A program made the position numbers and the translations under genes. Positions 1-16,341 of a stretch of 53,076 nt of DNA are shown one piece after another; position 1 is the first letter of the stretch, and each line of letters starts with the position of its first letter. The notes under the pieces are model-generated. The model worked only from the letters and a program-made list of their open reading frames with translations. It did no database searches and was not told where the DNA came from. Origin of the DNA: a virus; the IMG/VR virus record IMGVR_UViG_3300048065_000485, positions 1-53,076 of that record; one strand, written 5' to 3'.

Positions 1-2
1 GT

Positions 3-830
3 TATATCTTATTGGGTATGTTTTTATTAATACCTATGTCAGCAAATGCAGATGATAACGAAGTATTTTTAGGTAACATAAGTGGTGACAATTTAGAACT
101 AGATATACTACAAGCAGGTACTGATAATACAGTCACAGGTATAACAGAGTCAAGTCAATTTACAGGAGACGACAATACCTTACATATTATGCAAATAGGT
201 ACTGGAAATTTGTTTGAAGGTAATTGGACTAGTGGCGGCCTTAATACTTTAAAAGTATTCCAAGGTGGTGGCGGTAATGATAATTTTGTTAGGTTAACAG
301 GGTTTGGAACAAACAATACTGGACTTGTACTACAAGGTATGCACTCGGACGGAACTATTGACGCAGATGAAACAGGCTCCCACGAAGCATATTGGACAGT
401 AACAGGCGACTACAATGAGTTTTCCAGTTTTCAAACAGACACTAACCGAGGCAATGGAAGTGGAGATAGTCATCACTTAGCACATATAATTGATGGTGAC
501 TACAATGATGTTTGGCATAGGCAAAGAGGCAAAGCAGGACACGACGGTTTTATAGAAATCACAGGCGATTACAACGATGTAATTTTAGACCAAAAAGGCA
601 GTGGTGGTAAAAAATGGGCAGATGTCGTTTTAGATGGCAATGGACATAATATTGATATAAATCAACGTGGTACAAATTATGCATCAGCGGCAGTTGATTT
701 AACATTTGGTACAGGTGCTTACACATTTGATTTATCACAGAATGTCTCATCAGCAACAGCAACATACTCACTTACCGGTATATGTAATAACTCAGGAGGC
801 TGTTCAGTTACAGTGAATCAGAATAACTAA
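3..830 (+). CDS. Curlin-repeat secreted protein (CsgA/CsgB-like), 5' partial
   Basis: The reading frame is open to the left edge, so the true start lies upstream. The visible N-terminus is a hydrophobic stretch ending in SANA before DDNE, which looks like the second half of a signal peptide with cleavage after ANA. The mature part holds about nine degenerate repeats with spacing G-x-x-N-x(3-5)-Q-x-G, for example DNTLHIMQIGTGN and GDYNDVILDQKGSG, and ends in VTVNQNN. This Asn/Gln/Gly periodicity is the hallmark of curlin amyloid subunits (CsgA/CsgB), which are exported by CsgG. The likely role is an extracellular or outer-membrane fibre made during infection. No CsgG is visible, but it could lie upstream. 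Curli-type genes have been reported in pelagimyophages as far as I recall. The next gene starts in a TAATG overlap, so they are co-transcribed. Confidence 0.72.
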   Translation, partial: YILLGMFLLIPMSANADDNEVFLGNISGDNLELDILQAGTDNTVTGITESSQFTGDDNTLHIMQIGTGNLFEGNWTSGGLNTLKVFQGGGGNDNFVRLTGFGTNNTGLVLQGMHSDGTIDADETGSHEAYWTVTGDYNEFSSFQTDTNRGNGSGDSHHLAHIIDGDYNDVWHRQRGKAGHDGFIEITGDYNDVILDQKGSGGKKWADVVLDGNGHNIDINQRGTNYASAAVDLTFGTGAYTFDLSQNVSSATATYSLTGICNNSGGCSVTVNQNN

Positions 831-1144
831 TGCAAAGTTTAGACAGTTTAGGAAATCCAATACCCATTGAAGTAGACTATTTTGAATGCCCTGAAACTAT
901 GGTGTGTCTTACTGAAGAGACATTTAATGAAATGCTGGAACCATACGATATGGAATACAGCACAGAAACACTTGCACTTGAACCCAAAGGCGATGCAGAA
1001 GCAGTATTAGACTTCACAACTACATTATTATTTTTAGATTTTTGGACTATTGCCTATCTGGCAATACCTCTCACTATATTTGCAGTATATGGATTAAGTA
1101 TATATGCAGGCTTTAAATGGATTCAAACTAAAATAAGCAAATAA
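830..1144 (+). CDS. Small membrane protein, unknown function
   Basis: A 104-residue protein whose start overlaps the curlin-like gene's stop in TAATG, implying translational coupling. The first ~55 residues are acidic and soluble-looking, with two cysteines (ECPETMVC). Residues ~60-98 form one long or two short hydrophobic segments, followed by a basic end (KWIQTKISK), so a membrane anchor with the positive end in the cytoplasm is likely. I do not recognise the family. Position suggests an accessory to the secreted curlin-like protein, but that is inference only. Confidence 0.6.
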   Translation: MQSLDSLGNPIPIEVDYFECPETMVCLTEETFNEMLEPYDMEYSTETLALEPKGDAEAVLDFTTTLLFLDFWTIAYLAIPLTIFAVYGLSIYAGFKWIQTKISK

Positions 1145-1148
1145 TTAG

Positions 1149-1177
1149 TTGACACGCCGCAGTTTTTTTGCTATAAT
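1149..1177 (+). promoter_or_regulatory. Sigma70-type promoter
   Basis: TTGACA (1149-1154), 17-bp spacer, TATAAT (1172-1177): a perfect consensus. Predicted +1 is near 1184, only about 5 nt before the ATG at 1189, so the transcript would have almost no leader. Confidence 0.85.
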
Positions 1178-1188
1178 ATTTTTGAACT

Positions 1189-1377
1189 ATGAAACATATG
1201 ATCAAATGGCTGAAGATAACAGCCGGTATAAACTTATATCTATCCGTTATAATGACGTTTGTGTTTTTAACACTACTGTTTGCAATAGTATCCGACTATA
1301 ATTTAACTAATGCAGACGAATATGTTAGGTTCTTAATAAAAGAAGAAATGCAAAAAGACCCTAATGGAAATAACTAA
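1189..1377 (+). CDS. Small single-span membrane protein
   Basis: 62 residues with a basic N-terminus (MKHMIKWLK), one hydrophobic span at about residues 12-35, and a charged C-terminus. It lies directly behind a perfect sigma70 promoter and overlaps the next gene by 14 bp. A second ATG four codons in could also start it. Family not recognised. Being first behind a strong host-type promoter suggests early expression. Confidence 0.6.
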   Translation: MKHMIKWLKITAGINLYLSVIMTFVFLTLLFAIVSDYNLTNADEYVRFLIKEEMQKDPNGNN

Positions 1378-1666
1378 TTACACAAACAGTCTTAAGATTT
1401 ATTTTCTTGCTTTTGTAAGTGTACACATAATTGCATTCGGTGTGTTCTTCCCATTAATAGCATTTTTAATATTTTGTATATTAATGCCTTTTCTTTGGAT
1501 TACTACAATCTATATGATAATGTATAATTATTGCAGACAAGAAGGTATAGACTGGCCCTATACAGAAGGTAACCCAGTTTTACTAGATGTACATTTAACT
1601 CCATTCTATTACTTAAATGATTACGACCCATTTATAGATTACTTTGATTATGACCCACGTTACTAA
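1364..1666 (+). CDS. Membrane protein, paralogue of the next gene
   Basis: 100 residues. The N-terminus TNYTNSLKIYFLAFVSVH leads into two hydrophobic segments (about residues 12-35 and 38-62), then a Tyr/Asp-rich tail (YYLNDYDPFIDYFDYDPRY). It shares a clear N-terminal pattern with the following gene (TN/TKYTNSL..Y..A.ASVH..A.G..YP), so the two arose by tandem duplication. It overlaps both neighbours (14 bp and 23 bp). Function unknown; a holin-like or envelope role is possible but not shown. Confidence 0.6.
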   Translation: MEITNYTNSLKIYFLAFVSVHIIAFGVFFPLIAFLIFCILMPFLWITTIYMIMYNYCRQEGIDWPYTEGNPVLLDVHLTPFYYLNDYDPFIDYFDYDPRY

Positions 1667-1964
1667 GTACACAAACAGTTTGAGAAACTATGCTATTGCT
1701 GTAGCAAGTGTTCACGCAGTAGCATTAGGTTGGTTATATCCAAATGTACTAATGCTTATAGTTGTTCCACCAATAATATTCTATTTGCTTTTCTTATATT
1801 GCGAATTAATGTATGAAATTGACGAAGGAACTAGATTAAGATTACTAAAAGCAATTCGTGAAGCAGACGACCCAATCACAAAAGATGTACTAACTTGGGA
1901 ACTGATATTACACGAAGAACATACTATATTTGGAAACAATTCAAATGATAGGTTAGGTTTTTAA
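1644..1964 (+). CDS. Membrane protein, paralogue of the preceding gene
   Basis: 106 residues, starting inside the 3' end of its paralogue. It repeats the TKYTNSLRNYAIAVASVH N-terminus, has two hydrophobic segments (about 14-32 and 34-55), and then a different, charged C-terminal half rich in Glu/Asp/Arg. The tails have diverged completely, so the membrane domain is the conserved unit. A second start, ATGACC, lies two codons in. Function unknown. Confidence 0.6.
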   Translation: MIMTHVTKYTNSLRNYAIAVASVHAVALGWLYPNVLMLIVVPPIIFYLLFLYCELMYEIDEGTRLRLLKAIREADDPITKDVLTWELILHEEHTIFGNNSNDRLGF

Positions 1965-1970
1965 TTTAAT

Positions 1971-1978
1971 GATAAATA
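1971..1978 (+). promoter_or_regulatory. Late promoter box GATAAATA
   Basis: T4-type late box upstream of the lipoprotein gene. Predicted +1 near 1984 gives a leader of about 48 nt containing a hairpin and an AAGGAG ribosome site. Confidence 0.6.
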
Positions 1979-1983
1979 TATTA

Positions 1984-2011
1984 TGTTATAATAACAGATT
2001 GTTTTATAACA
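1984..2011 (+). other. Inverted repeat at the 5' end of the lipoprotein mRNA
   Basis: TGTTATAA (1984-1991) pairs with TTATAACA (2004-2011) around a 12-nt loop. The hairpin would start at the predicted transcript 5' end and could protect the mRNA or affect initiation. Confidence 0.45.
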
Positions 2012-2031
2012 CTTATATATAAGGAGAAAAT

Positions 2032-2355
2032 ATGAACAATTTAAAAAATGCGTTCTTAGGTATATTCTTTGTAATGTTTGCTCAAGGTTGTGCTACAGTT
2101 GGTACCGTAATCGATGGCGGACAAAAACTAGCCACAGATACACTTGATACTGTAACAGGTACAGCAAGTGGTATCGTTGGTTCAGTTGCAAATGATGTCG
2201 GTAGTGTAGTTCAAACTACAGCAGAAGTTGGAGTTGGATTAGTCCAAACTGCGGCTGATACCGGTGCAGGATTAGTACAAGTTGTTGCTGACGAAGTCAA
2301 CAATCAAACTGATGCTTTACAAGAAGAAGAACCAAAAGAAGAGCCAAAAAAGTAA
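2032..2355 (+). CDS. Putative lipoprotein with 11-residue helical repeats
   Basis: 107 residues. A short basic start and hydrophobic stretch lead to a lipobox-like FAQGC at ~16-20; the -3 residue is Ala, so it is not ideal. Residues ~55-90 hold three 11-residue repeats of the form VGSVVQTTAEV / GVGLVQTAADT / GAGLVQVVADE, an amphipathic-helix pattern seen in lipid-binding repeat proteins. The end is Glu/Lys-rich. AAGGAG precedes the ATG by 6 nt. The gene ends A AAA AAG TAA, a canonical -1 slippery site at the stop codon, and the -1 frame stays open for 71 more codons, so a longer product is likely. Probable location: inner face of the outer membrane. Confidence 0.7.
   Translation: MNNLKNAFLGIFFVMFAQGCATVGTVIDGGQKLATDTLDTVTGTASGIVGSVANDVGSVVQTTAEVGVGLVQTAADTGAGLVQVVADEVNNQTDALQEEEPKEEPKK
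2346..2352 (+). promoter_or_regulatory. Candidate -1 ribosomal frameshift site (A AAA AAG)
   Basis: The heptamer lies in the required phase (cc[A AAA AAG] TAA) with the stop immediately after. A purine-rich AGAAGAG sits just upstream and could act as a stimulatory Shine-Dalgarno element. The -1 frame is open from 2313 to 2567. No strong downstream stem was seen. Confidence 0.55.
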
Positions 2356-2567
2356 CTAGCTCATTCTTTAAACCTTTTAAGTTTTTAAAACAGAACGAAA
2401 AACAAAAAGGTATAGACTCACCCTCGAAAGAGAGTGAGCAGGTAACTGAAGAGGATATTAAAGAACTTATATTGCAAAATAAAGTTCTAAAAGAGTTATT
2501 GAAAGATAAACTTTTAGAAGATGCAATTAAAGAATATTGCTCCAAGGTACCTGAAGACTGTGAATAG
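2352..2567 (+). CDS. Frameshift extension of the lipoprotein (charged coiled-coil tail)
   Basis: The -1 frame after the slippery heptamer encodes 71 residues: a basic/aromatic start (VTSSFFKPFKFLK), then a Glu/Lys/Leu-rich helix (EEDIKELILQNKVLKELLKD), ending CSKVPEDCE before TAG. There is no ATG or GTG in this frame and only two internal TTG codons, so frameshifting is the simplest way to express it. The amino-acid make-up looks coding. Its stop is overlapped by the GTG of the next gene (2560), as expected for a real translated unit. It would add a helical arm to the lipoprotein. The alternative is a degraded separate gene. Confidence 0.5.
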   Translation, partial: VTSSFFKPFKFLKQNEKQKGIDSPSKESEQVTEEDIKELILQNKVLKELLKDKLLEDAIKEYCSKVPEDCE

Positions 2568-3072
2568 ATTACTTTTCATCATAACATTAACATTTCCTCT
2601 GTTTTTAACGGCAGAGGAAATTGTTCTTAGTCCATCATACTTACCGGAAGGTAGTGTATTGGACCTTACCTATAATCCCCCACTAGATCCTTATTACTGT
2701 GATAATAATCCTGAACTTTGTAAAGTAATAGAAACTAGTGACATTCCAAAGTTTGATATGACTCCACGTGCTACTAATGGACAATGGATAGCATTTTGGA
2801 CGTTTCAGTTATTAGATGTATATTCAACATCACGAGCATTAAAGTACGATTGTGTAACAGAAATAAATCCGTTGTTTACAGAATCGCCTAGTGATGCTAG
2901 ATTGGTACTTACAAAAACACTTTTACTGGTACCTGGCTTAATGTACAACGATTACTGGAAAGAAGTCACACCTAACGAACTTAATGACACTAATATGGTG
3001 TACTCAATAGTTGTTGCAAATAACTTTAGATTACTTAACAAAGCCAAGCAGTATTGCAATAAAATACGATAA
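2560..3072 (+). CDS. Signal-peptide membrane protein with DVYST/EINPLF motif
   Basis: I prefer the GTG at 2560 over the ATG at 2521: it gives a clean signal peptide (NRLLFIITLTFPLFLTAEE), has AAGG upstream, and overlaps the frameshift extension by only 8 bp. About 170 residues. The mature part has paired cysteines (YYCDNNPELC) and the block FWTFQLLDVYSTSRALKYDC then EINPLF. That D..ST..AL...E.NPL pattern recurs in small polytopic membrane proteins of the DUF5658 type (from memory). A hydrophobic segment covers ~114-130. Function unknown; by position, part of the envelope block. A late box overlaps its stop codon. Confidence 0.6.
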   Translation: MNRLLFIITLTFPLFLTAEEIVLSPSYLPEGSVLDLTYNPPLDPYYCDNNPELCKVIETSDIPKFDMTPRATNGQWIAFWTFQLLDVYSTSRALKYDCVTEINPLFTESPSDARLVLTKTLLLVPGLMYNDYWKEVTPNELNDTNMVYSIVVANNFRLLNKAKQYCNKIR

Positions 3073-3075
3073 ATA
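3068..3075 (+). promoter_or_regulatory. Late promoter box GATAAATA, leaderless start
   Basis: Exactly 5 nt (ttgat) separate the box from the ATG at 3081, so T4 spacing puts +1 on the A of ATG. The box contains the TAA stop of the upstream gene (3070-3072). Confidence 0.7.
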
Positions 3076-3080
3076 TTGAT

Positions 3081-5150
3081 ATGAAATGGTTATACAGCGG
3101 GTACGCAGTAGCAGTATCTATAGCATTGTTACTCGCATTAAGGGTATTCGATCCTACGCCTTTACAAAGCCTACGTGGTCAAGTATTTGACAGTTACCAA
3201 CAATTAGATGAAGTAGTACAAAGTGATGACGTTGTATTAATAAACATTGGCGAAAAAAGTTTAGCAAAATACGGACAGTATCCTTTCCCTAGACAATACT
3301 ATGCTCAAATGGTAGTAGACGTTGCTATGAAAAATGGCGGTGTTATGGGTTGGACAATAATGTTTCCAGAAGCAGATAGGTTTCAGGGAGATGAAAGTTT
3401 TGCAGGTATGATGAATCAGAACGTTATGAATGTTCCTGGTGCAAGAAAGAATCCTGTAAACTATAATGTATTAAGCCAAACACCAAGTGTAAAGGGTATA
3501 AAGTCAACAGGACCACATATAGGCACAGGCACAATAGGGCCTGTTCCAGCAAAAGATTATTTGCTTACTTGGCCCAACTTAGTTACTAATGTAGACAAGT
3601 TAGAATCAGCAAGTAATGGTAAAGGAGTAAATGCTTCAGCACCACAACCAGATAATCAAACAAGAACATATCCATTAGCAATTACAGTAGGTGATAAAAT
3701 ATATCCTAGTTTTGCTGTAGAAATGTTAAGGGTAAAAACAGGCAAACCTAGTTACATAATTAAAACATCAGAAATAGGAATACAGGAAGTTGCTGTTCCC
3801 CCATTTGACCCGATAGTAACGCAACCAAACGGAACAGCATATATAAGATTTAATAATGAATTTACTGAAATTGAATATGAGGGTGCAGAAAGCATTCCAG
3901 ACTTAGCAGGTAAATTTGTTATAGTAGGTGTTACAGCAGAAGGTATTGCTAACCCTGTGCCTACACCTAAAGGAAACTTATATCCTCAACAGATACAAGC
4001 ACACATGCTACAGAACTTTATAGATGGTAGTAATATAACAAGGAGTCAGTTAAGTGCTGTCATAGAGCTTCTAGTAGGGTTACTGACTATGGTTCTTGTT
4101 GCTTTAGCAGTATATAGATTACCATTGCTTTTAACAGCACCTATGGCTTTAGCAGTATTAGGTGGTATAGCATACTTTAGTGTTTACAAATATACTAGTA
4201 GTTTGGTATTATTAGATGCAACTTTCCCTGTATTAAGTGGATTTTTAGTATTTACACAGGCGGCATTTAATAACTTTTACAAGCAGTTTAAATTACGTGA
4301 ACAAATTAAGAAACAATTCGAACATTACCTTGCTCCAGCAATGGTTAAAAAATTACAGAAAGATCCAAGTTTATTACGTTTAGGTGGAGATACAAAAACA
4401 ATGACATATCTATTTTCAGATATTAGAGGTTTCACACCGATATCAGAACAGTTTAAAACAGATCCACAAGGTTTAGGTAAACTTATAAACAGATATATGA
4501 CACCAATGACTGACCTCGTTATGCAGAAAGAGGGAACAATAGACAAATACATAGGTGATGCCTTAATGGCAATTTGGGGAGCACCACTTGATATAGAAAA
4601 TCATGCTCAGTTGGCAATAGAAACAGCACAAGAAATGGAAGTAGAATTAGCAAAATTAAACAAAGAACTAAAAGCAGACGGACTTATGGAGTTAGGTGTT
4701 GGTATAGGCATAAACACAGGTGATGCAGTAGTAGGTAACATGGGCTCAGATCAACGATTCGATTATACAGTATTAGGCGATAGTGTAAATTTAGCGGCAC
4801 GTTTAGAAGCACAAACAAAAGAGTATGGTGTATTCTTTATGTTTACTGAACACACTCTTAAGGAAATTACAGCACCTGAAAATTTAGTGATGTTAGATAA
4901 AATTGCTGTAAAAGGACAAACAGCACCAGTTACAATTTATACTATTTTAAAAGATCATAAAGAAGCAAGAGTTATTAACAGAATGGTAGATGCATATCAA
5001 AACAGAGAATGGAGTACAGTTGCACATCAAATAGAAATTATTAATCAGCATAACTGGAATTCTGTATTAGCAGAATTATATGGTCAAAGAATTAAACAGC
5101 CTATGCCTAAAGGCGAATGGGACGGAGTTGAACGTAAAACAACTAAATAG
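3081..5150 (+). CDS. CHASE2-domain class III adenylate cyclase
   Basis: 689 residues. An N-terminal membrane anchor (~6-22) precedes a periplasmic CHASE2 sensor domain (~25-320, with the typical VVLINIGEKSLAKYGQYPFPR start), three membrane spans (~325-410), and a C-terminal class III cyclase domain (~440-625). Catalytic residues look complete: metal aspartates D447 (FSDIRGFT) and D493 (KYIGDALMAIWG), substrate-determining K490 and T563 (FDYTVLGD), and transition-state N570 and R574 (NLAARLE). The Lys/Thr pair fits a class IIIb adenylate rather than guanylate cyclase. It should convert ATP to cAMP at the inner membrane in response to a periplasmic signal. A late box 5 nt before the ATG predicts late, leaderless expression. 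Such a gene is very unusual in a phage. Confidence 0.92.
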   Translation: MKWLYSGYAVAVSIALLLALRVFDPTPLQSLRGQVFDSYQQLDEVVQSDDVVLINIGEKSLAKYGQYPFPRQYYAQMVVDVAMKNGGVMGWTIMFPEADRFQGDESFAGMMNQNVMNVPGARKNPVNYNVLSQTPSVKGIKSTGPHIGTGTIGPVPAKDYLLTWPNLVTNVDKLESASNGKGVNASAPQPDNQTRTYPLAITVGDKIYPSFAVEMLRVKTGKPSYIIKTSEIGIQEVAVPPFDPIVTQPNGTAYIRFNNEFTEIEYEGAESIPDLAGKFVIVGVTAEGIANPVPTPKGNLYPQQIQAHMLQNFIDGSNITRSQLSAVIELLVGLLTMVLVALAVYRLPLLLTAPMALAVLGGIAYFSVYKYTSSLVLLDATFPVLSGFLVFTQAAFNNFYKQFKLREQIKKQFEHYLAPAMVKKLQKDPSLLRLGGDTKTMTYLFSDIRGFTPISEQFKTDPQGLGKLINRYMTPMTDLVMQKEGTIDKYIGDALMAIWGAPLDIENHAQLAIETAQEMEVELAKLNKELKADGLMELGVGIGINTGDAVVGNMGSDQRFDYTVLGDSVNLAARLEAQTKEYGVFFMFTEHTLKEITAPENLVMLDKIAVKGQTAPVTIYTILKDHKEARVINRMVDAYQNREWSTVAHQIEIINQHNWNSVLAELYGQRIKQPMPKGEWDGVERKTTK
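5142..5149 (+). promoter_or_regulatory. Late promoter box ACTAAATA, leaderless start
   Basis: TAAATA followed by gtagt and the ATG at 5155 (5-nt gap). The box overlaps the cyclase stop codon TAG at 5148-5150. Confidence 0.55.
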
Positions 5151-5154
5151 TAGT

Positions 5155-5481
5155 ATGAAAAACTTTTTACACAACATAGTACAGAAAGGCAAATCTGCTT
5201 TAATATGGTTAGGCCAATTGGCTTATAAAATCTATAAAGCAATAGTTAAATTTATTTTTAAACTCCTTTACGAAGAATACGAATTGACAGTTTGGTATCT
5301 TAAAGACTCAGTCAGAGATAAAGACGGTAACATAACAACTACAAGATCACATAAAAGATATCTTTTAAAGAAAATTTCTAAGAAAACTCCTAAACATATC
5401 AAAGGAAAAGATATGGAAGGAAGAGCATTTGAAATTAGAACTGTAGAACCTTTTGATTATCAGATAAGAAAAATTTATTAA
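5155..5481 (+). CDS. Small basic protein with amphipathic N-terminus, unknown
   Basis: The start at 5155 is chosen because a late box sits exactly 5 nt upstream; the upstream in-frame ATG at 5080 lies inside the cyclase gene. 108 residues. Residues 1-45 are a hydrophobic/basic helix (WLGQLAYKIYKAIVKFIFKLLYEEY) and the rest is very Lys/Arg-rich with a possible beta segment. It may bind membrane or nucleic acid. Convergent with the next gene; the two abut with no gap and no terminator is visible. Family not recognised. Confidence 0.6.
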   Translation: MKNFLHNIVQKGKSALIWLGQLAYKIYKAIVKFIFKLLYEEYELTVWYLKDSVRDKDGNITTTRSHKRYLLKKISKKTPKHIKGKDMEGRAFEIRTVEPFDYQIRKIY

Positions 5482-6114
5482 TTATTCGTCTGGAGACCAA
5501 TCTTTTAAATTTCTAAAAAACATATAATAGTGTCTAAAATCTTTCAGTTGTTGTTTAGCATGGAATAGTTCTAAAGGCACACCTTCTCCATGATTAACTA
5601 ATGGGAAATAATATCTTTTAATTATTCTTTCTAAATTTCTTACATCTTTACCTAATGCATCTAGTATAATATTGTTGTATTCATAATCAGTTACCAAGTC
5701 TACTAACCAATAATGAAAAGGATGTTCTGGATTAAATCTTCTTATAACTTCTCTAGATTGATAATACATTGCTCTTACAGGATTCATGCCTGGTCTGTAT
5801 AGATTCATTATTTCCTTAAACCTAAAACTTTCATGTTCTGTAGCCTTATGATTAACAAATCTAGCATAATCATTTTTCATTGCTTTTTTTAGGGATTCGA
5901 AATTTTCTCCAATATTCTGGTGATACTCTTTATAGAGTTTATCAAATATTTTTTGGTATTTTGTCGGTAACTTCTCGTAGTATACATCTTGAATTTCTTG
6001 TAATTCAATAGCACCCTCTAATAATGTATGTGGAATAGTTGTAGTTCGTTGGAACTTGTCGAGTTCTGTAGTTATCCGCAAAACAACAAAATCGATAATT
6101 TCGCCTTTGCTCAT
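5482..6114 (-). CDS. Conserved-looking helical protein, unknown
   Basis: 210 residues, no signal peptide or membrane span, rich in Tyr, His, Arg and Glu, predicted largely helical (FDKLYKEYHQNIGENFESLK). No domain recognised. The start is supported by a late box 5 nt upstream on the minus strand, overlapping the stop codon of the Nudix gene. Its place at the end of the gp14-gp15-Nudix late block suggests a virion or assembly role, but that is inference. Confidence 0.65.
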   Translation of the reverse strand: MSKGEIIDFVVLRITTELDKFQRTTTIPHTLLEGAIELQEIQDVYYEKLPTKYQKIFDKLYKEYHQNIGENFESLKKAMKNDYARFVNHKATEHESFRFKEIMNLYRPGMNPVRAMYYQSREVIRRFNPEHPFHYWLVDLVTDYEYNNIILDALGKDVRNLERIIKRYYFPLVNHGEGVPLELFHAKQQLKDFRHYYMFFRNLKDWSPDE

Positions 6115-6119
6115 ACTTA

Positions 6120-6127
6120 TATTTATT
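6120..6127 (-). promoter_or_regulatory. Late promoter box AATAAATA, leaderless start
   Basis: On the minus strand the box is followed by taagt and the ATG at 6114 (5-nt gap). It spans the Nudix gene's stop codon. Confidence 0.6.
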
Positions 6128-6554
6128 CAGAATGAATTTTTAATATAGTATGCAGTTTTTCTGTACCTTTGTTATAAGATAATGTAACTTTGGCACCATT
6201 ATGTAGAGGTTTTGGCCACTGCCCAATATTGACCCAGGCATAACCGGCACTTTCACCATTTATTTTTGGGGGCATAAATTCTTCTTCTACTACATATACA
6301 AAACTATAGTAATAAAATTTTTTATCTTTGCTTTGGTAGACATCTAAAGGATTTAATTTTTGCAGTTCTGGAACGAACCCTATCTCTTCTTCAAGTTCTC
6401 GTTGTATACATTCGTAAGGAGTTTCTCCCCTTTCAATTATACCTCCCCAAAATCCCCAGGTATGATTGAATCGTTTGTTGCCTTCTCGTAATTGCAACAT
6501 ACATCTTCCTGTGTCTTTGGCAAGGAATAAAACTCCTGCCGCCGTTGTGTTCAT
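6123..6554 (-). CDS. Nudix hydrolase
   Basis: 143 residues with a perfect Nudix box, G-x5-E-x7-REUxEExGU, at residues 38-60 (G38, E44, R52-E53, E56-E57, G59). The TWGFWGG run just before it resembles the GDP-mannose/NADH-type proteins seen in T4-like phages. It should cleave a nucleoside diphosphate linked to another moiety; the substrate cannot be read from sequence. The start overlaps the stop of gp15 by one base, so it is translated from the same minus-strand late mRNA. Confidence 0.9.
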   Translation of the reverse strand: MNTTAAGVLFLAKDTGRCMLQLREGNKRFNHTWGFWGGIIERGETPYECIQRELEEEIGFVPELQKLNPLDVYQSKDKKFYYYSFVYVVEEEFMPPKINGESAGYAWVNIGQWPKPLHNGAKVTLSYNKGTEKLHTILKIHSE

Positions 6555-7906
6555 TATAAACTAAGTCTCCAAAATCCTGGATTGTATTCTCCTTCATAAC
6601 TACTTATCCAGGCCTTGCCTGTCCATTTGTATTGTTTGGAAGTAAAAGAGTTATTTAGATAATGAATATCACTACTACTGGCACTAGCATCAAATACTAC
6701 AGTCCATGCAGAACCGTTGTATTGAATTATGTCGTTTGCCCCGGCATCTATGTCCCAATTAGGGTATCCTGATTTTGTAATTTCCTCTGTAATTAAATAT
6801 CTTTGTCCGTTAGAGGCGGCCGCTAGAGTACCGTCTCCAGGGAAGTTTGCTCTAGGATCTATAATTTTATCCACTGCAGAAAGTGTATTGGTAGGCAATG
6901 TATCTGTATCTAAATTAAAAATTAATGAAGCATCATTAGTTGGATTTTTAGTTACAGTACCATATACCAAATTTAATAAATTTTCTGAGTCACCGCTTAT
7001 ATTTAATTTTAATAAACTTGTAGATCTTATTTCTCCAAGTTGTTCTATAATACTAGACCACTTTACTTCAGTGCCATCTTGTTCTACTAATGTAGCAGTA
7101 GAACCTATTACTTGTACTTTGTAATCACCTGGTGTAGTAACAATCTCAAATGATTCTTCTATACTACCAAAGAAGTCTTGATAATCTTGGCTGTAACCTA
7201 ATTCTGAGATATCAGATACTGAATGTACATTGTTTATGATCTCTTGAATAATTGTTTGTCTTTTTACTTTAGCAGGAGGACTAATCCAAATAGGAAGTGC
7301 AAACGTTAAAGTTGAGATATCTAAGTTTTCATCTACACCTGCAGGAATACCTCTACTACTCCAAGCAATATCTGTTAGTTCTACTTCAAATACACTGGTC
7401 CAATCTAAAGGGTTACTATTGGATTGTAATTGTATGCTTGGATTAAACAATACAAATATTTGTTCTAATACTTGTAATTTAGTATCAGTATTAGTTGTCC
7501 AAAGATCTACATTAATTGTTAAATTATATGGTACAGGCATATACCTTTGTGTTGAGTATAAGTTGCCTTGTTCAGAAGAATAAGTTCCTGTTTCTTTATC
7601 AAATTCTCTTTCTGCTATCTGATTTGTATCTACAAAGAAAGGTTCTGCTATTCTATCTCTTGCTGGTTGTATACTTTGTATTGTAACACTTATAAAAGGA
7701 GCACTATTAATTACGTTTTCAGAATTATTACGCAATATATTTGCTACCATTCTACTAGCATCACCGTATCTTGCCGGTACACGATTATAACTTACGCCGT
7801 CTTTTGTAAATTCTCTAACTTTAAAGTTTGAAAAAATTCTAATAACTTGCAGTAAATAACGTTTTATCTGCTCGTCATACCAGTAATCTAAATTCTTACC
7901 TGCCAT
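6554..7906 (-). CDS. 15: Tail sheath stabiliser / tail completion protein gp15
   Basis: 450 residues. The first ~230 follow T4 gp15: a WYDEQIKRYLLQVIRIFSNF start, RVPARYGDA, APFISVTIQSI, then PVPYNLTINVDLWT and LEQIFVLFNPSIQLQ, matching remembered T4 gp15 blocks in the same order. gp15 caps the tail tube and sheath at the neck and joins gp14. The protein is ~180 residues longer than T4 gp15; the extension ends in two short modules (NDIIQYNGSAWTVV and KQYKWTGKAWISSYEG) also found in gp14 and the sheath here. Its ATG overlaps the gp14 stop by one base. Confidence 0.78.
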   Translation of the reverse strand: MAGKNLDYWYDEQIKRYLLQVIRIFSNFKVREFTKDGVSYNRVPARYGDASRMVANILRNNSENVINSAPFISVTIQSIQPARDRIAEPFFVDTNQIAEREFDKETGTYSSEQGNLYSTQRYMPVPYNLTINVDLWTTNTDTKLQVLEQIFVLFNPSIQLQSNSNPLDWTSVFEVELTDIAWSSRGIPAGVDENLDISTLTFALPIWISPPAKVKRQTIIQEIINNVHSVSDISELGYSQDYQDFFGSIEESFEIVTTPGDYKVQVIGSTATLVEQDGTEVKWSSIIEQLGEIRSTSLLKLNISGDSENLLNLVYGTVTKNPTNDASLIFNLDTDTLPTNTLSAVDKIIDPRANFPGDGTLAAASNGQRYLITEEITKSGYPNWDIDAGANDIIQYNGSAWTVVFDASASSSDIHYLNNSFTSKQYKWTGKAWISSYEGEYNPGFWRLSL

Positions 7907-8967
7907 TAGTTGTCCGTCCTAGGTTTAATGACTTTACTTAAATTTGTTTTTTCGTTAGCATCAGTGCCATCACTTTCACTAGTTATATTGTCATTATTAA
8001 TAAACGTAGCAAGTATTCTGTTTGCCGCAGACCAAGCCTTTCTTCCGTCTGTGCCAACGTTTAACCAACGTGTTCCAGATTTTTTAAATAATCTATTTGG
8101 TGAGAAGTCTGTTCTTAAGAAATAATCACCATCTGTAGTTCCACTTGTTGGGAATGTTTCTCCACTACCAACTAAACTAAGTCCATTTACAGGTGTTCCA
8201 TCAGCACCACCAAAGTCTATACTTGGCTTATCAGGTACAGTTTCATCAAAATATAAATGTGTAGTATTTCTAAATTGAGGATCGAAAGGTACGTCTTTTT
8301 CTGCCTGTTCTAAAAGTTTATCATTTATATTAATATCATTTGCGTATGTACTAATTAAATTTCTTAAATCTTCTTCCTCTTCGCCAGTACCAAGAATATC
8401 TCTGTATTCTTGTGAGTCTGTAATTGGGCCTAATTTTACTCTCCAAAGATGTGGCCACCAACGTGGGTCATATCCTTCTGCAGGCCTACTAGCATCTGTA
8501 ACTACATAATATCTGTTGATTGCTTCTTCGCTACCTAATAATAAGTCGTCTCTTAAATGTGGTAATTCTAATACATCACCTGCCATTAATTTTCTACCAA
8601 CTGCTTCTACCATGCTTTCTATATGGAAATTCATAAACAAAGTATCGTTTGCTAAAAACATACCAAATTGTGTTAAGTCAAATGCATCGTTATCGCCAAT
8701 GTTGTATTGTCCACGTAATTCGTAAATGTCTTTATCGTACTTTCTATCTCTATTTTCTAAAAATAACAAATCTTGTATAAAAACTTCTGAATCATTTGCC
8801 GCACTACTAGGTCTTGTAGGGTCTCCTTCATCTGGAGTTGTATGTACACCTAAGTATTTGTGTATATGTACACCGGTACCACCGGCATAAAGGTGCTCTC
8901 CGACAATTCTGTCAGTGAAGTTGTAGTCATTTGTTTTGACTGGGTTCCATAAACTTAATTTAGGCAT
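7906..8967 (-). CDS. 14: Neck protein gp14
   Basis: 353 residues. The central FGMFLANDTLFMNFHIESM, then KLMAGDVLELPHLRDD and NRYYVVTD, parallels T4 gp14 (FGM..QDEVTLSIN, then GDLIYFP). gp14 forms the ring linking the portal/gp13 to gp15. Position next to gp15 supports this. The C-terminal third carries one copy of a GDYFLRTD..NRLFKKSGTRW module related to repeats in gp15 and gp18. A late box 5 nt before the ATG (minus strand) implies leaderless late expression. gp13, usually adjacent, is on the other strand 8.8 kb away. Confidence 0.68.
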   Translation of the reverse strand: MPKLSLWNPVKTNDYNFTDRIVGEHLYAGGTGVHIHKYLGVHTTPDEGDPTRPSSAANDSEVFIQDLLFLENRDRKYDKDIYELRGQYNIGDNDAFDLTQFGMFLANDTLFMNFHIESMVEAVGRKLMAGDVLELPHLRDDLLLGSEEAINRYYVVTDASRPAEGYDPRWWPHLWRVKLGPITDSQEYRDILGTGEEEEDLRNLISTYANDININDKLLEQAEKDVPFDPQFRNTTHLYFDETVPDKPSIDFGGADGTPVNGLSLVGSGETFPTSGTTDGDYFLRTDFSPNRLFKKSGTRWLNVGTDGRKAWSAANRILATFINNDNITSESDGTDANEKTNLSKVIKPRTDN

Positions 8968-9043: not shown

Positions 9044-9133
9044 GGAAAGGTGGCTGAGTGGCTTAAAGCACTTCCCTGCTAAGGAAGAGTACGGGTAACT
9101 GTACCGAGAGTTCGAATCTCTCCCTTTCCGCCA
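9044..9133 (+). tRNA. tRNA-Ser (anticodon GCU)
   Basis: Acceptor GGAAAGG (9044-9050) pairs with CCTTTCC (9123-9129), then discriminator G and encoded CCA. The anticodon stem CTTCC/GGAAG encloses loop CTGCTAA with anticodon GCT at 9078-9080 (reads AGC/AGU). The long variable arm is typical of serine tRNA, and the T arm has GAGAG-TTCGAAT-CTCTC. A late box lies just upstream. It probably helps decode AGU, which is common in these AT-rich genes. Confidence 0.93.
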
Positions 9134-13528: not shown

Positions 13529-14485
13529 ATGAGAATATTTATAACAGGAGCAGACGGTTTTATAGGTCAGCACATGGTTGAACGATTAAAAGACAAACAC
13601 GAACTAGAATTTTTAAAAGAAGATTTAAGAGACCATGCCAAGGTTGCCATGCAGATCTCAACTTTTGATCCTGAGATAATTGTTCATTTGGCGGCAAGAA
13701 CAGAAGTACAGGACAGTTTTTATGAACAAATAACTTTTAGCGAAGTAAATTACGTTGGTACTGTAAATTTAATTGAAATTGCGGCAACACTACCTAATTT
13801 GAAAAATTTTGTATTTGCAAGTACAATGGAAGTATATGGTTGGCAACCTATAAGTGATTTGATTAGAGACGGAAAAGAAGAAGGAATAATTGCATTTAAT
13901 GAAGCAACACCTCCGAATCCAAATGCCCCCTACGCCGTTGCAAAGTATGGCTGTGAAAAATACTTAGAGTATGCTCATAGAAGTTATGGATTACCTTTTA
14001 CTGCTATTAGACAAACAAATGCATACGGTAGAAAGGACAATGACTTTTTTGTAACAGAACAAATTATTACACAAATGTTAAAAAATCCAGATGAGATTAA
14101 CTTAGGATATGGCGAGCCATACAGAAACTTTATTTACATTGATGATTTATTAGATGCATGGGAAACAGTAATAACAAATCCTGATAAGTGTGCTGGTGAA
14201 ATATTCTGTATAGGACCAGACAATGCAATTAAAATAAAGGACTATGTGCAACTCATTGCAGATAAACTTGAATGGAAAGGTCATGTAAATTGGAATACTA
14301 AACCTCCAAGACCAGGTGAAATTTATTTACTTAATAGTACTAATCATAAAATTACAACAAGATTAGGTTGGTTCCCTAAAGTAGAATTAAGTGAAGGACT
14401 AGATAGAACTATTGCTGTCTGGAAAGATGTTTTAGAAAATAATTTGCCACATAATCAGGACAGAAGATTTTCTAAAGGAAAATAA
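13529..14485 (+). CDS. NAD-dependent nucleotide-sugar epimerase/dehydratase (extended SDR)
   Basis: 318 residues. An N-terminal Rossmann motif GADGFIG (G7, G10, G13), VHLAARTEVQ, S/T in FASTMEVYG, the catalytic pair Y135/K139 (PYAVAKYG), then RQTNAYG and NFIYIDDLLDAW identify an extended SDR acting on NDP-sugars. It would oxidise at C4 and epimerise or dehydrate the sugar. Complete length for the family. It gives the cassette a sugar-nucleotide branch. AAGGAA precedes the ATG; the next gene follows in TAATG. Confidence 0.9.
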   Translation: MRIFITGADGFIGQHMVERLKDKHELEFLKEDLRDHAKVAMQISTFDPEIIVHLAARTEVQDSFYEQITFSEVNYVGTVNLIEIAATLPNLKNFVFASTMEVYGWQPISDLIRDGKEEGIIAFNEATPPNPNAPYAVAKYGCEKYLEYAHRSYGLPFTAIRQTNAYGRKDNDFFVTEQIITQMLKNPDEINLGYGEPYRNFIYIDDLLDAWETVITNPDKCAGEIFCIGPDNAIKIKDYVQLIADKLEWKGHVNWNTKPPRPGEIYLLNSTNHKITTRLGWFPKVELSEGLDRTIAVWKDVLENNLPHNQDRRFSKGK

Positions 14486-16341
14486 TGTTTAACATTACTT
14501 TAGTTCAGCCTAATTTTCAGACTGGGCCTAAGCATCTTAATAGTTATTATTTGCCTTATAGTGTTGGTTCCTTATGGAGTTATTTACTACAACATTCTCA
14601 AATAGAAGAAAATTATCAAGTAGATAATTGGATATTTAGACGAGAAACATTACAAGATGTAGTAGATAGATGTAAAAATACAGATATAGTTTTTATAAGT
14701 TTATACATTTGGAATAAAAATTATTGCCTTATGTTAGGTAAAATTTTAAAAGAAGCCTATCCAAATATTAAAATTATTTTAGGCGGCCCTGAAGTACCTC
14801 ATAGAAATCCAAATTTTTTAAAAGACAATGATTATATTGATTCTATAGTAATCGGAGAAGGCGAGTTAGCAGTATTAGATATACTTACTGCTTATTTAGA
14901 TGAAAAACCCTTAGAGCAAGTGTATGAATACGAGAGGATAAAGGATTTAAACTTACCTAGTCCTTATACACTAGGATTGTTTGACGATCTTTTAAAACAA
15001 CACCCAGATATAGAATGGGTTCCAACATTAGAAACAGATAGAGGATGCCCTTACAGTTGTACTTTTTGTGATTGGGGAAGTGCCACAGCAAGTAAAATGT
15101 ATAAATTATATGACGATAGAATACTTGCAGATCTTCAATGGGTAGCAGATAATAAATTACCTTACCTAGCATTAACATCTAGTAATTTTGGAATCTTTAA
15201 GGATAGAGATTTGATGATAACAGATATGATTGTTAAAACAACTAAAGAAACAGGTTACCCAAAAGGCATTAGTGTAAGTTATGCAAAAAACAGTAATGAT
15301 ACTGTATTAGAAATTGTTAAAAAATTTATAGATGTGAATATACAAACAGGAATAACTTTGAGTTTACAAACAACAACTGAAGAAGTTTTAGAGAATATTA
15401 AACGTAAAAATATGAAAATTAATTCTATTGATGAAATCATAGGATCTGCAAAAGAAAAAAATGTTCCTGCCCTAACAGAATTAATATTAGGCATGCCAGG
15501 TGAAACTGTGGAATCATGGAAGTCTACTTTAGAACAAATATTAATAAATGAAATACCAACATTAGATGTTTACTTTTTACAACTATTAGTAAACTCTCCA
15601 ATGTATGTAAAACAAATACAAGAATATGATTTAAAAACATTTTATGCATATGACTTTTTCTATGGTGTACAGAACGAAAAATTTGAATACGATAAAAAAC
15701 ATAAGATATCGGAATCTATAGAAGTTATAAAAAGCACAAATACAATATCAGAAAAAGAAATGGCAGATGTATCTTTGTTTACTGTTTTTGTATTAGGATT
15801 TCAAATGTTTGGATTATCAAATATTATGTCTACTCATTTAAATAAAACACAAGGATTGTCTTATATAAAGTTCTATGAAGGTCTATACGAATATCTTATT
15901 GAAAACGATACTAATATTAATATATGGCTAGAAAAGTTACAAAAGGGTTTTATAGATTGGAAAAAAACAGGTTATATGGATACAAACATAGATGGAGTAC
16001 ATATAGAAGGTTGGAAATTTTTCCATTCCTTAATGCCAATCATTCAACAGAATAATTTAGTATCACATTATATAGATCTTGTTGCAGATTATTCTAAACA
16101 ATTTACAACATCTGATATTATAGAAGATTTTGTAAAAGTATCAAATTTACAAATTAAACAATTTGACTCACAAATACACGAATCTCTCCAGGTTACAGTC
16201 AAAAGTAACCTTTTTCCTGCAAATTTAATTATTTCTGATAGATACGGAGACTACTTGGCAGAAAAAGAAGAACACTTAGATATGCTCTTTTTTGGAAGAC
16301 GTAGAGGATGGCACCTTAATAAAATAAGTCTTGACAAATAA
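14485..16341 (+). CDS. Radical SAM enzyme with N-terminal cobalamin-binding-like domain
   Basis: 618 residues. Residues ~1-160 form a B12-binding-like Rossmann domain (LVQPNFQTGP, YYLPYSVGSLWSYL, IILGGPEVPHRN, IGEGE) without the DxHxxG base ligand, as usual for the radical SAM subgroup. The iron-sulphur motif CxxxCxxC is C188-C192-C195 (GCPYSCTFCDWG). ELILGMPGET is a typical later strand. The C-terminal ~200 residues are unassigned. It should cleave SAM to a 5'-deoxyadenosyl radical, doing methylation or rearrangement at unreactive carbon. The phage also carries a SAM synthetase at 41960. TAATG coupling to the epimerase. Confidence 0.88.
   Translation: MFNITLVQPNFQTGPKHLNSYYLPYSVGSLWSYLLQHSQIEENYQVDNWIFRRETLQDVVDRCKNTDIVFISLYIWNKNYCLMLGKILKEAYPNIKIILGGPEVPHRNPNFLKDNDYIDSIVIGEGELAVLDILTAYLDEKPLEQVYEYERIKDLNLPSPYTLGLFDDLLKQHPDIEWVPTLETDRGCPYSCTFCDWGSATASKMYKLYDDRILADLQWVADNKLPYLALTSSNFGIFKDRDLMITDMIVKTTKETGYPKGISVSYAKNSNDTVLEIVKKFIDVNIQTGITLSLQTTTEEVLENIKRKNMKINSIDEIIGSAKEKNVPALTELILGMPGETVESWKSTLEQILINEIPTLDVYFLQLLVNSPMYVKQIQEYDLKTFYAYDFFYGVQNEKFEYDKKHKISESIEVIKSTNTISEKEMADVSLFTVFVLGFQMFGLSNIMSTHLNKTQGLSYIKFYEGLYEYLIENDTNINIWLEKLQKGFIDWKKTGYMDTNIDGVHIEGWKFFHSLMPIIQQNNLVSHYIDLVADYSKQFTTSDIIEDFVKVSNLQIKQFDSQIHESLQVTVKSNLFPANLIISDRYGDYLAEKEEHLDMLFFGRRRGWHLNKISLDK

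Follow-up and report, generated by a model that had tools for sequence, protein, structure and literature searches.

Why would a marine phage encode a complete receptor-type nucleotidyl cyclase beside its curli surface-fibre genes, and what would read the product in bacteria that, for some related phages, seem to lack any known cAMP receptor? The 53,076-nucleotide stretch analysed here (the window) is part of a giant marine phage in which these genes lie side by side. Curli modules are common among marine phages, but there is no agreement on what they are for; aggregation, lysis timing and nutrient uptake have been proposed (PMC7029224, PMC9004378, PMC9599517). An intact, selected and late-expressed cyclase with a lineage-specific sensor and an exchangeable catalytic domain points to a signalling component rather than cargo, and makes the purpose of the module testable: what does CHASE2 sense, and how is cAMP read where CRP is absent? 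The kind of enzyme and the curli module are already published; what is new here is the jumbo-phage home, which extends the module beyond pelagiphages, the finding that sensor and enzyme are inherited separately, and the documented absence of a receptor.

The cyclase open reading frame matched CHASE2 (PF05226; residues 16-339, E 8e-31) and Guanylate_cyc (PF00211; residues 439-621, E 2e-20) in Pfam. An AlphaFold model (pLDDT 86.4) contained a cyclase fold from residue 437 to 622 followed by helices to 672. Together, PF05226 and the model gave the topology of CHASE2 receptor cyclases, i.e. an N-terminal transmembrane segment, an extracytoplasmic CHASE2 domain, further transmembrane segments and a cytoplasmic catalytic domain. 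The sensor and membrane spans called in an earlier, sequence-only reading were thus borne out by the CHASE2 match and by TM1 and TM2-TM4 of the model, the sensor being extracytoplasmic. That reading had also listed six catalytic residues. D447, D493, T563, N570 and R574 stood, while the purine lysine had to be moved from position 490, which is occupied by tyrosine, to K489; the active-site residues align with those of the solved CyaC, CyaB and Cya2 cyclases. The hexad D447 K489 D493 T563 N570 R574 provides the complete class III set of two metal-binding aspartates, purine lysine, threonine at the Asp/Thr position, and transition-state asparagine and arginine. The catalytic domain was placed with CyaC, CyaB, Cya2 and light-regulated cyclases by both phmmer and Foldseek. 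A solved CHASE2 structure was also sought by Foldseek, and the top PDB matches listed were cyclases or photoreceptor-cyclases. D447, K489, D493 and R574 were invariant wherever covered among 240 viral relatives. For both the CHASE2 and the catalytic domain, dN/dS against close relatives was about 0.03-0.17, values at odds with a degenerate closest family. Judged from its sequence, the identity of this protein as a full-length class III cyclase is near certain. It is complete and conserved, is probably active and of the adenylyl type, and we infer that its product is cAMP.

Table 1. Features of the cyclase locus (window coordinates; residues are those of the cyclase).
Feature	Coordinates	Strand	Basis or remark
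Curlin-repeat gene, second curlin of the module	1..830	+	PF07012, E 7e-10
Small predicted lipoprotein between curlin and cyclase	2032..2355	+	lipobox-like start MNNLKNAFLGIFFVMFAQGCA in translation
Small predicted exported or membrane protein directly upstream of the cyclase	2521..3072	+	sub-threshold DUF5658 only
T4-type late promoter box GATAAATA	3068..3075	+	5 nt ahead of ATG; predicted leaderless start
CHASE2 class III (IIIb-like) receptor nucleotidyl cyclase, 689 aa	3081..5150	+	Pfam, catalytic residues, model, purifying selection
TM1 (residues 7-23)	3099..3149	+	hydropathy, model helix
Extracytoplasmic CHASE2 sensor (residues 24-320)	3150..4040	+	PF05226, model, sensor tree
TM2-TM4 and signalling helix (residues 325-413)	4053..4319	+	model
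Sensor/catalytic exchange junction (near residues 405-420)	inside or adjoining 4053..4319	+	junction alignment, sliding identity
Class III catalytic domain (residues 437-622)	4389..4946	+	PF00211, PDB matches CyaC/CyaB/Cya2

The phage backbone was compared with known phages. The TerL (57%), DnaB (55%) and tail sheath proteins were nearest to those of the Pseudomonas jumbo phages PA5oct and Paride (about 287 kb), Sinorhizobium phage Phosso followed them in the terminase and DnaB rankings, and almost every gene of the window had a homologue in a syntenic contig of 250,519 bases. These comparisons assign the window to a jumbo phage lineage. A pelagimyophage (Kyanoviridae) was rejected on the same genes, which were nearer to PA5oct and Paride than to HTVC008M or Melnitz. 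PA5oct and Phosso records were not among the cyclase matches in the phage collection, and a search of one open-access literature library returned no report of a curli-cyclase module in jumbo phages. A tRNA-Ser(GCT) gene lies at 9044-9133. Its best alphaproteobacterial matches, 86% to a 1.3-Mb genome (G219) and 83% to a 0.9-Mb genome (G278), constitute a weak host clue, and neither genome has a listed cNMP-binding domain. Elsewhere in the window, a radical SAM protein that also has a B12-binding domain (14485-16341) adjoins a nucleotide-sugar epimerase (13529-14485).

The window starts within the second curlin of a curli module. The ATG of this gene lies upstream of the window, at position 2693 of contig L001, which overlaps window positions 1-8310 at 99.7%, and the whole gene matches PF07012. 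Directly ahead of the genes seen in the window, contig L001 adds a partial csgG, curlin, FecR and curlin, and csgF is present in the relatives L016 and L027; in the window, L001 and relatives, the csgF, csgG, curlin and FecR genes lie upstream of the cyclase gene on the same strand. They were also found upstream at 69 of the 71 viral cyclase loci for which 8 kb or more of preceding sequence was available, and the HTVC008M and Melnitz homologues terminate a csgF-csgG-curlin-FecR-curlin series. Wittmers et al. (2022) had described the phage module as CsgF-CsgG-curlin-FecR-curlin-AC, and the pelagiphage cyclase of this T8SS module as being of alphaproteobacterial origin and common to myo- and podophages (PMC9599517). 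The kind of gene is therefore known. The view that phages rarely encode such cyclases does not hold, given the published module, cultured examples and at least 585 confirmed stretches in one IMG/VR scan, in which the suggested search for viral-metagenome homologues was answered. A link to adhesion, raised in the same reading, is plausible because curli genes are the cyclase's constant neighbours. The cyclase can nonetheless occur without the module, as csgF, csgG, curlin and FecR were not detected in the 10 kb upstream of two Melnitz-type loci (L181 and L183). Between curlin and cyclase in the window, the lipoprotein gene had no Pfam family match, and the stop codon of the gene preceding the cyclase falls within the late promoter box. 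A histidine kinase has been placed before csgF (PMC9599517); the small open reading frames at this position in L016 (L016:161-756), L342 (L342:6624-7186), L081 (L081:6860-7419), L082 (L082:7516-7860), HTVC008M and Melnitz matched no kinase family in Pfam. Each of the two in L342 appears to combine one transmembrane segment with a coiled coil and may be holin-like.

The heptamer ATAAATA was rarer than expected in the window (22 sites versus 40.6 under a first-order model). Seven sites were positioned exactly 5 nt ahead of the ATG of an open reading frame of at least 60 aa, nine sites had this spacing in HTVC008M, and no peak at the N5-ATG spacing was seen among control heptamers. Sites on the plus strand were mostly shortly upstream of gene starts, with structural genes among those at the exact spacing. 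The geometry of a T4 late promoter would start transcription at or beside the ATG. The placement of ATAAATA suggests that many late mRNAs of this phage are leaderless, and from the same geometry we infer a leaderless cyclase mRNA. Within the window's sensor lineage, ATAAATA was held at -12 to -6 in 73 of the 75 loci with an aligned ATG, and the box occurs in the same arrangement ahead of csgF in HTVC008M and ahead of the cyclase itself in Melnitz. Late expression, as proposed from the letters alone, is thus upheld by the box at 3068-3075 and its conserved position. Late boxes were also found at 6126 and 8979 with a minus-strand block (5482-8967) encoding an unknown protein, a NUDIX hydrolase, a 450-aa enlarged gp15-like tail sheath stabiliser and a virion protein.

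The two halves of the protein have different histories. The catalytic hexads of the 240 viral loci fell into three types, DKDTNR (63), DKDSNR (92) and DKDDSR (82), with three loci truncated, such that the position of residue 563 was T, S or D. In the last type (the D/S type; L082, L164-L240 and others), which is Melnitz-type, the transition-state asparagine is replaced by serine and Asp occupies position 563, on a very long branch. All phage sensors clustered together, separately from those of 39 bacterial CHASE2 cyclases (SH-aLRT 100). When the SAR11-binned phage cyclases L333 and L334 were added they grouped with the phages (100), and the split between phages and bacteria was then weakly supported. 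Catalytic types were scattered across the sensor tree, where the D/S type as a single clade was rejected (AU p 8e-77), whereas in the catalytic tree this type occupied its own long branch. Jumbo sensors are found with all three types; the joint is in the signalling helix, where the alignment placed it at the QIKKQF stretch. For example, L063 was 98-100% identical to the window over residues 61-240 with a catalytic domain nearer that of HTVC008M, while L076, a jumbo hybrid with a D/S catalytic domain, was 85-97% identical to the window over residues 21-320 and 97% identical to Melnitz over residues 421-480. Misassembly is a disfavoured source of these hybrids, as 19 jumbo loci of the D/S type and five of the HTVC008M-like type shared the same joint on separate IMG/VR contigs. 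Every flank-classifiable locus with a window-type sensor had jumbo-type flanks, and the exchange therefore occurred within the jumbo lineage. On this phylogenetic evidence the sensor follows the phage lineage and the catalytic domain is exchanged. No donor of the D/S catalytic domain was found.

Sensor identity correlated with that of FecR (rho 0.78) and CsgG (0.67), whereas catalytic identity did not follow either closely (0.17 and 0.25, respectively). This pattern is consistent with a sensor required to suit the envelope proteins of its own phage. With the jumbo loci left out, the FecR correlation was 0.57 for the sensor versus 0.26 for the catalytic domain, and among the few jumbo loci alone the sensor correlation was 0.29 (p 0.07), giving no significant sign of tight sensor-FecR co-evolution within this set. 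The correlation comes mostly from deep lineages, and shared phage descent therefore explains much of it. In Sinorhizobium meliloti, CHASE2 cyclases act with the outer-membrane beta-barrel NsrA (PMC13001267), and CyaD1 lacking CHASE2 produces cAMP constitutively (PMC5498481). The FecR gene SMc02177 adjoins cyaD1 but is dispensable for perception of the plant signal (PMC5498481), which counts against the simplest version of a FecR-sensing model. CHASE2 cyclases of Campylobacterota also cluster with FecR (PMC9239204).

In the reading that we favour, with about an even chance of being correct, the protein is a receptor adenylyl cyclase produced late, whose cAMP signals the condition of the FecR/curli envelope machinery that the phage itself encodes. 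As the last member of the curli/FecR module, the cyclase would be expressed late, as virion genes are, from a promoter of its own, and would dimerise in the inner membrane, where periplasmic CHASE2 would gate the cytoplasmic class III catalytic pair and hence conversion of ATP to cAMP. What CHASE2 reads would most likely be the condition of FecR, of the CsgG pore or of the passage of curlin, or else a ligand entering through this envelope machinery, and cAMP would convey that information into the cell. The FecR/curli machinery as the signal is our guess and could equally well prove wrong; the several small genes between curlin and cyclase in the jumbo lineage count against this reading.

The conventional output of such an enzyme would be a cAMP receptor, and late cAMP acting through a host CRP-type protein could switch host catabolic or surface genes, as the sequence-only reading had supposed. 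Bacterial CHASE2 cyclases are indeed often found beside cNMP-binding proteins (within 3 kb at 11 of 76 loci, a marine operon in L271 being one example), S. meliloti uses Clr (PMC13001267), and 287 of the 385 genomes in a class-wide sample had a cNMP-binding domain. However, this domain was found in none of 14 phage records, complete HTVC008M and Melnitz among them, and was missing from 138 of 147 probable SAR11-family genomes; HTVC008M, a cultured relative, infects SAR11. This family was reached via two genomes that matched a 16S probe whose sequence we take to be that of SAR11, and its name rests on the probe, on genome size and on curli-module phage contigs. The conventional output is therefore missing, at least in SAR11, and for these probable hosts the CRP reading fails. 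With expression from a late promoter, changes in host transcription would also probably come too late to have much effect. Overall we consider host reprogramming through CRP unlikely, though it may apply to the jumbo phage itself, for which the tRNA-Ser gives a weak host clue.

Guanylate_cyc matches were found in three SAR11-family genomes, two of them above the family cut-off. These two (G409 and G445) were phage contigs carrying csgF-csgG-curlin-FecR-AC and the third (G464) was below the cut-off, so that none of the 147 genomes had a class III cyclase of its own. The two contigs filed in SAR11-family genomes (G409:C1, L342, and G445:C11, L341) may represent a direct host link or binning contamination; L342 has terminase-like and other phage genes beside the module. 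In a bolder reading, which we rather doubt in full, marine phages may install a complete sensor-gated cAMP source, tied to curli/FecR, in cells with neither a class III cyclase nor a cAMP receptor. The sensor would be bound to the phage lineage, the catalytic half would pass between unrelated phages at a constant joint, and the route taken by cAMP would thus not be CRP.

A non-transcriptional purpose of cAMP or of ATP use, such as a target other than CRP, export of cAMP, or disruption of the nucleotide signalling or defence of the host or of rival phages, would account for an intact cyclase kept in hosts with neither partner, and catalytic domains are freely exchanged as if the product alone counts. 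Sensor gating would be odd for a plain ATP sink, and we regard this explanation as fairly improbable. There is only a slight chance that the main product of the catalytic domain is a cyclic nucleotide other than cAMP, cGMP for instance: position 563 varies (T/S/D), few residues set class III substrate choice and several solved structural neighbours, Cya2 included, are guanylyl cyclases, but the purine lysine K489 is invariant, and guanylyl cyclases usually have Glu at this position. A passenger gene inherited with the curli genes and no longer functional in the phage is hardly credible, since dN/dS of 0.03-0.17, invariant catalytic residues and a conserved promoter oppose it, even though the whole module moves between phage groups (PMC9599517 and loci here).

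The receptor cyclase favoured here can be compared with three known systems. Spirulina CyaC and Pseudomonas CyaB (PDB 1wc1 and 3r5g) share its fold (TM-score 0.86-0.87 of target) and its K/T/N/R active-site positions, whereas their N-terminal regulatory parts differ and soluble CyaC has no CHASE2. Alphaproteobacterial CHASE2 cyclases of the S. meliloti CyaD1/CyaD2/CyaK type, which are regulated through CHASE2 (PMC5498481), are full-length homologues with 31-38% identity. FecR was nearby at 27 of 80 bacterial CHASE2 cyclase loci, a likeness to the phage module, whereas csgG was within 10 kb at 0 of 80 and no curli genes were found beside these bacterial cyclases; bacterial genes can sit with cNMP receptors, whereas the phage module sits with curli genes and without a receptor. 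The pelagiphage cyclases (HTVC008M AGE60353.1 and Melnitz QZI94833.1) are closest in design, with CHASE2, transmembrane segments and a class III domain over the full length, the same csgF-csgG-curlin-FecR-curlin-AC gene order as the window lineage, and monophyletic sensors. Identity to the window is nevertheless only 31-33% in the sensor and 42-50% in the catalytic domain. The gene of the window belongs to a jumbo lineage and not to Kyanoviridae or HTVC023P-type podophages, is separated from curlin by extra genes and has its own late promoter, a box that the Melnitz cyclase also carries.
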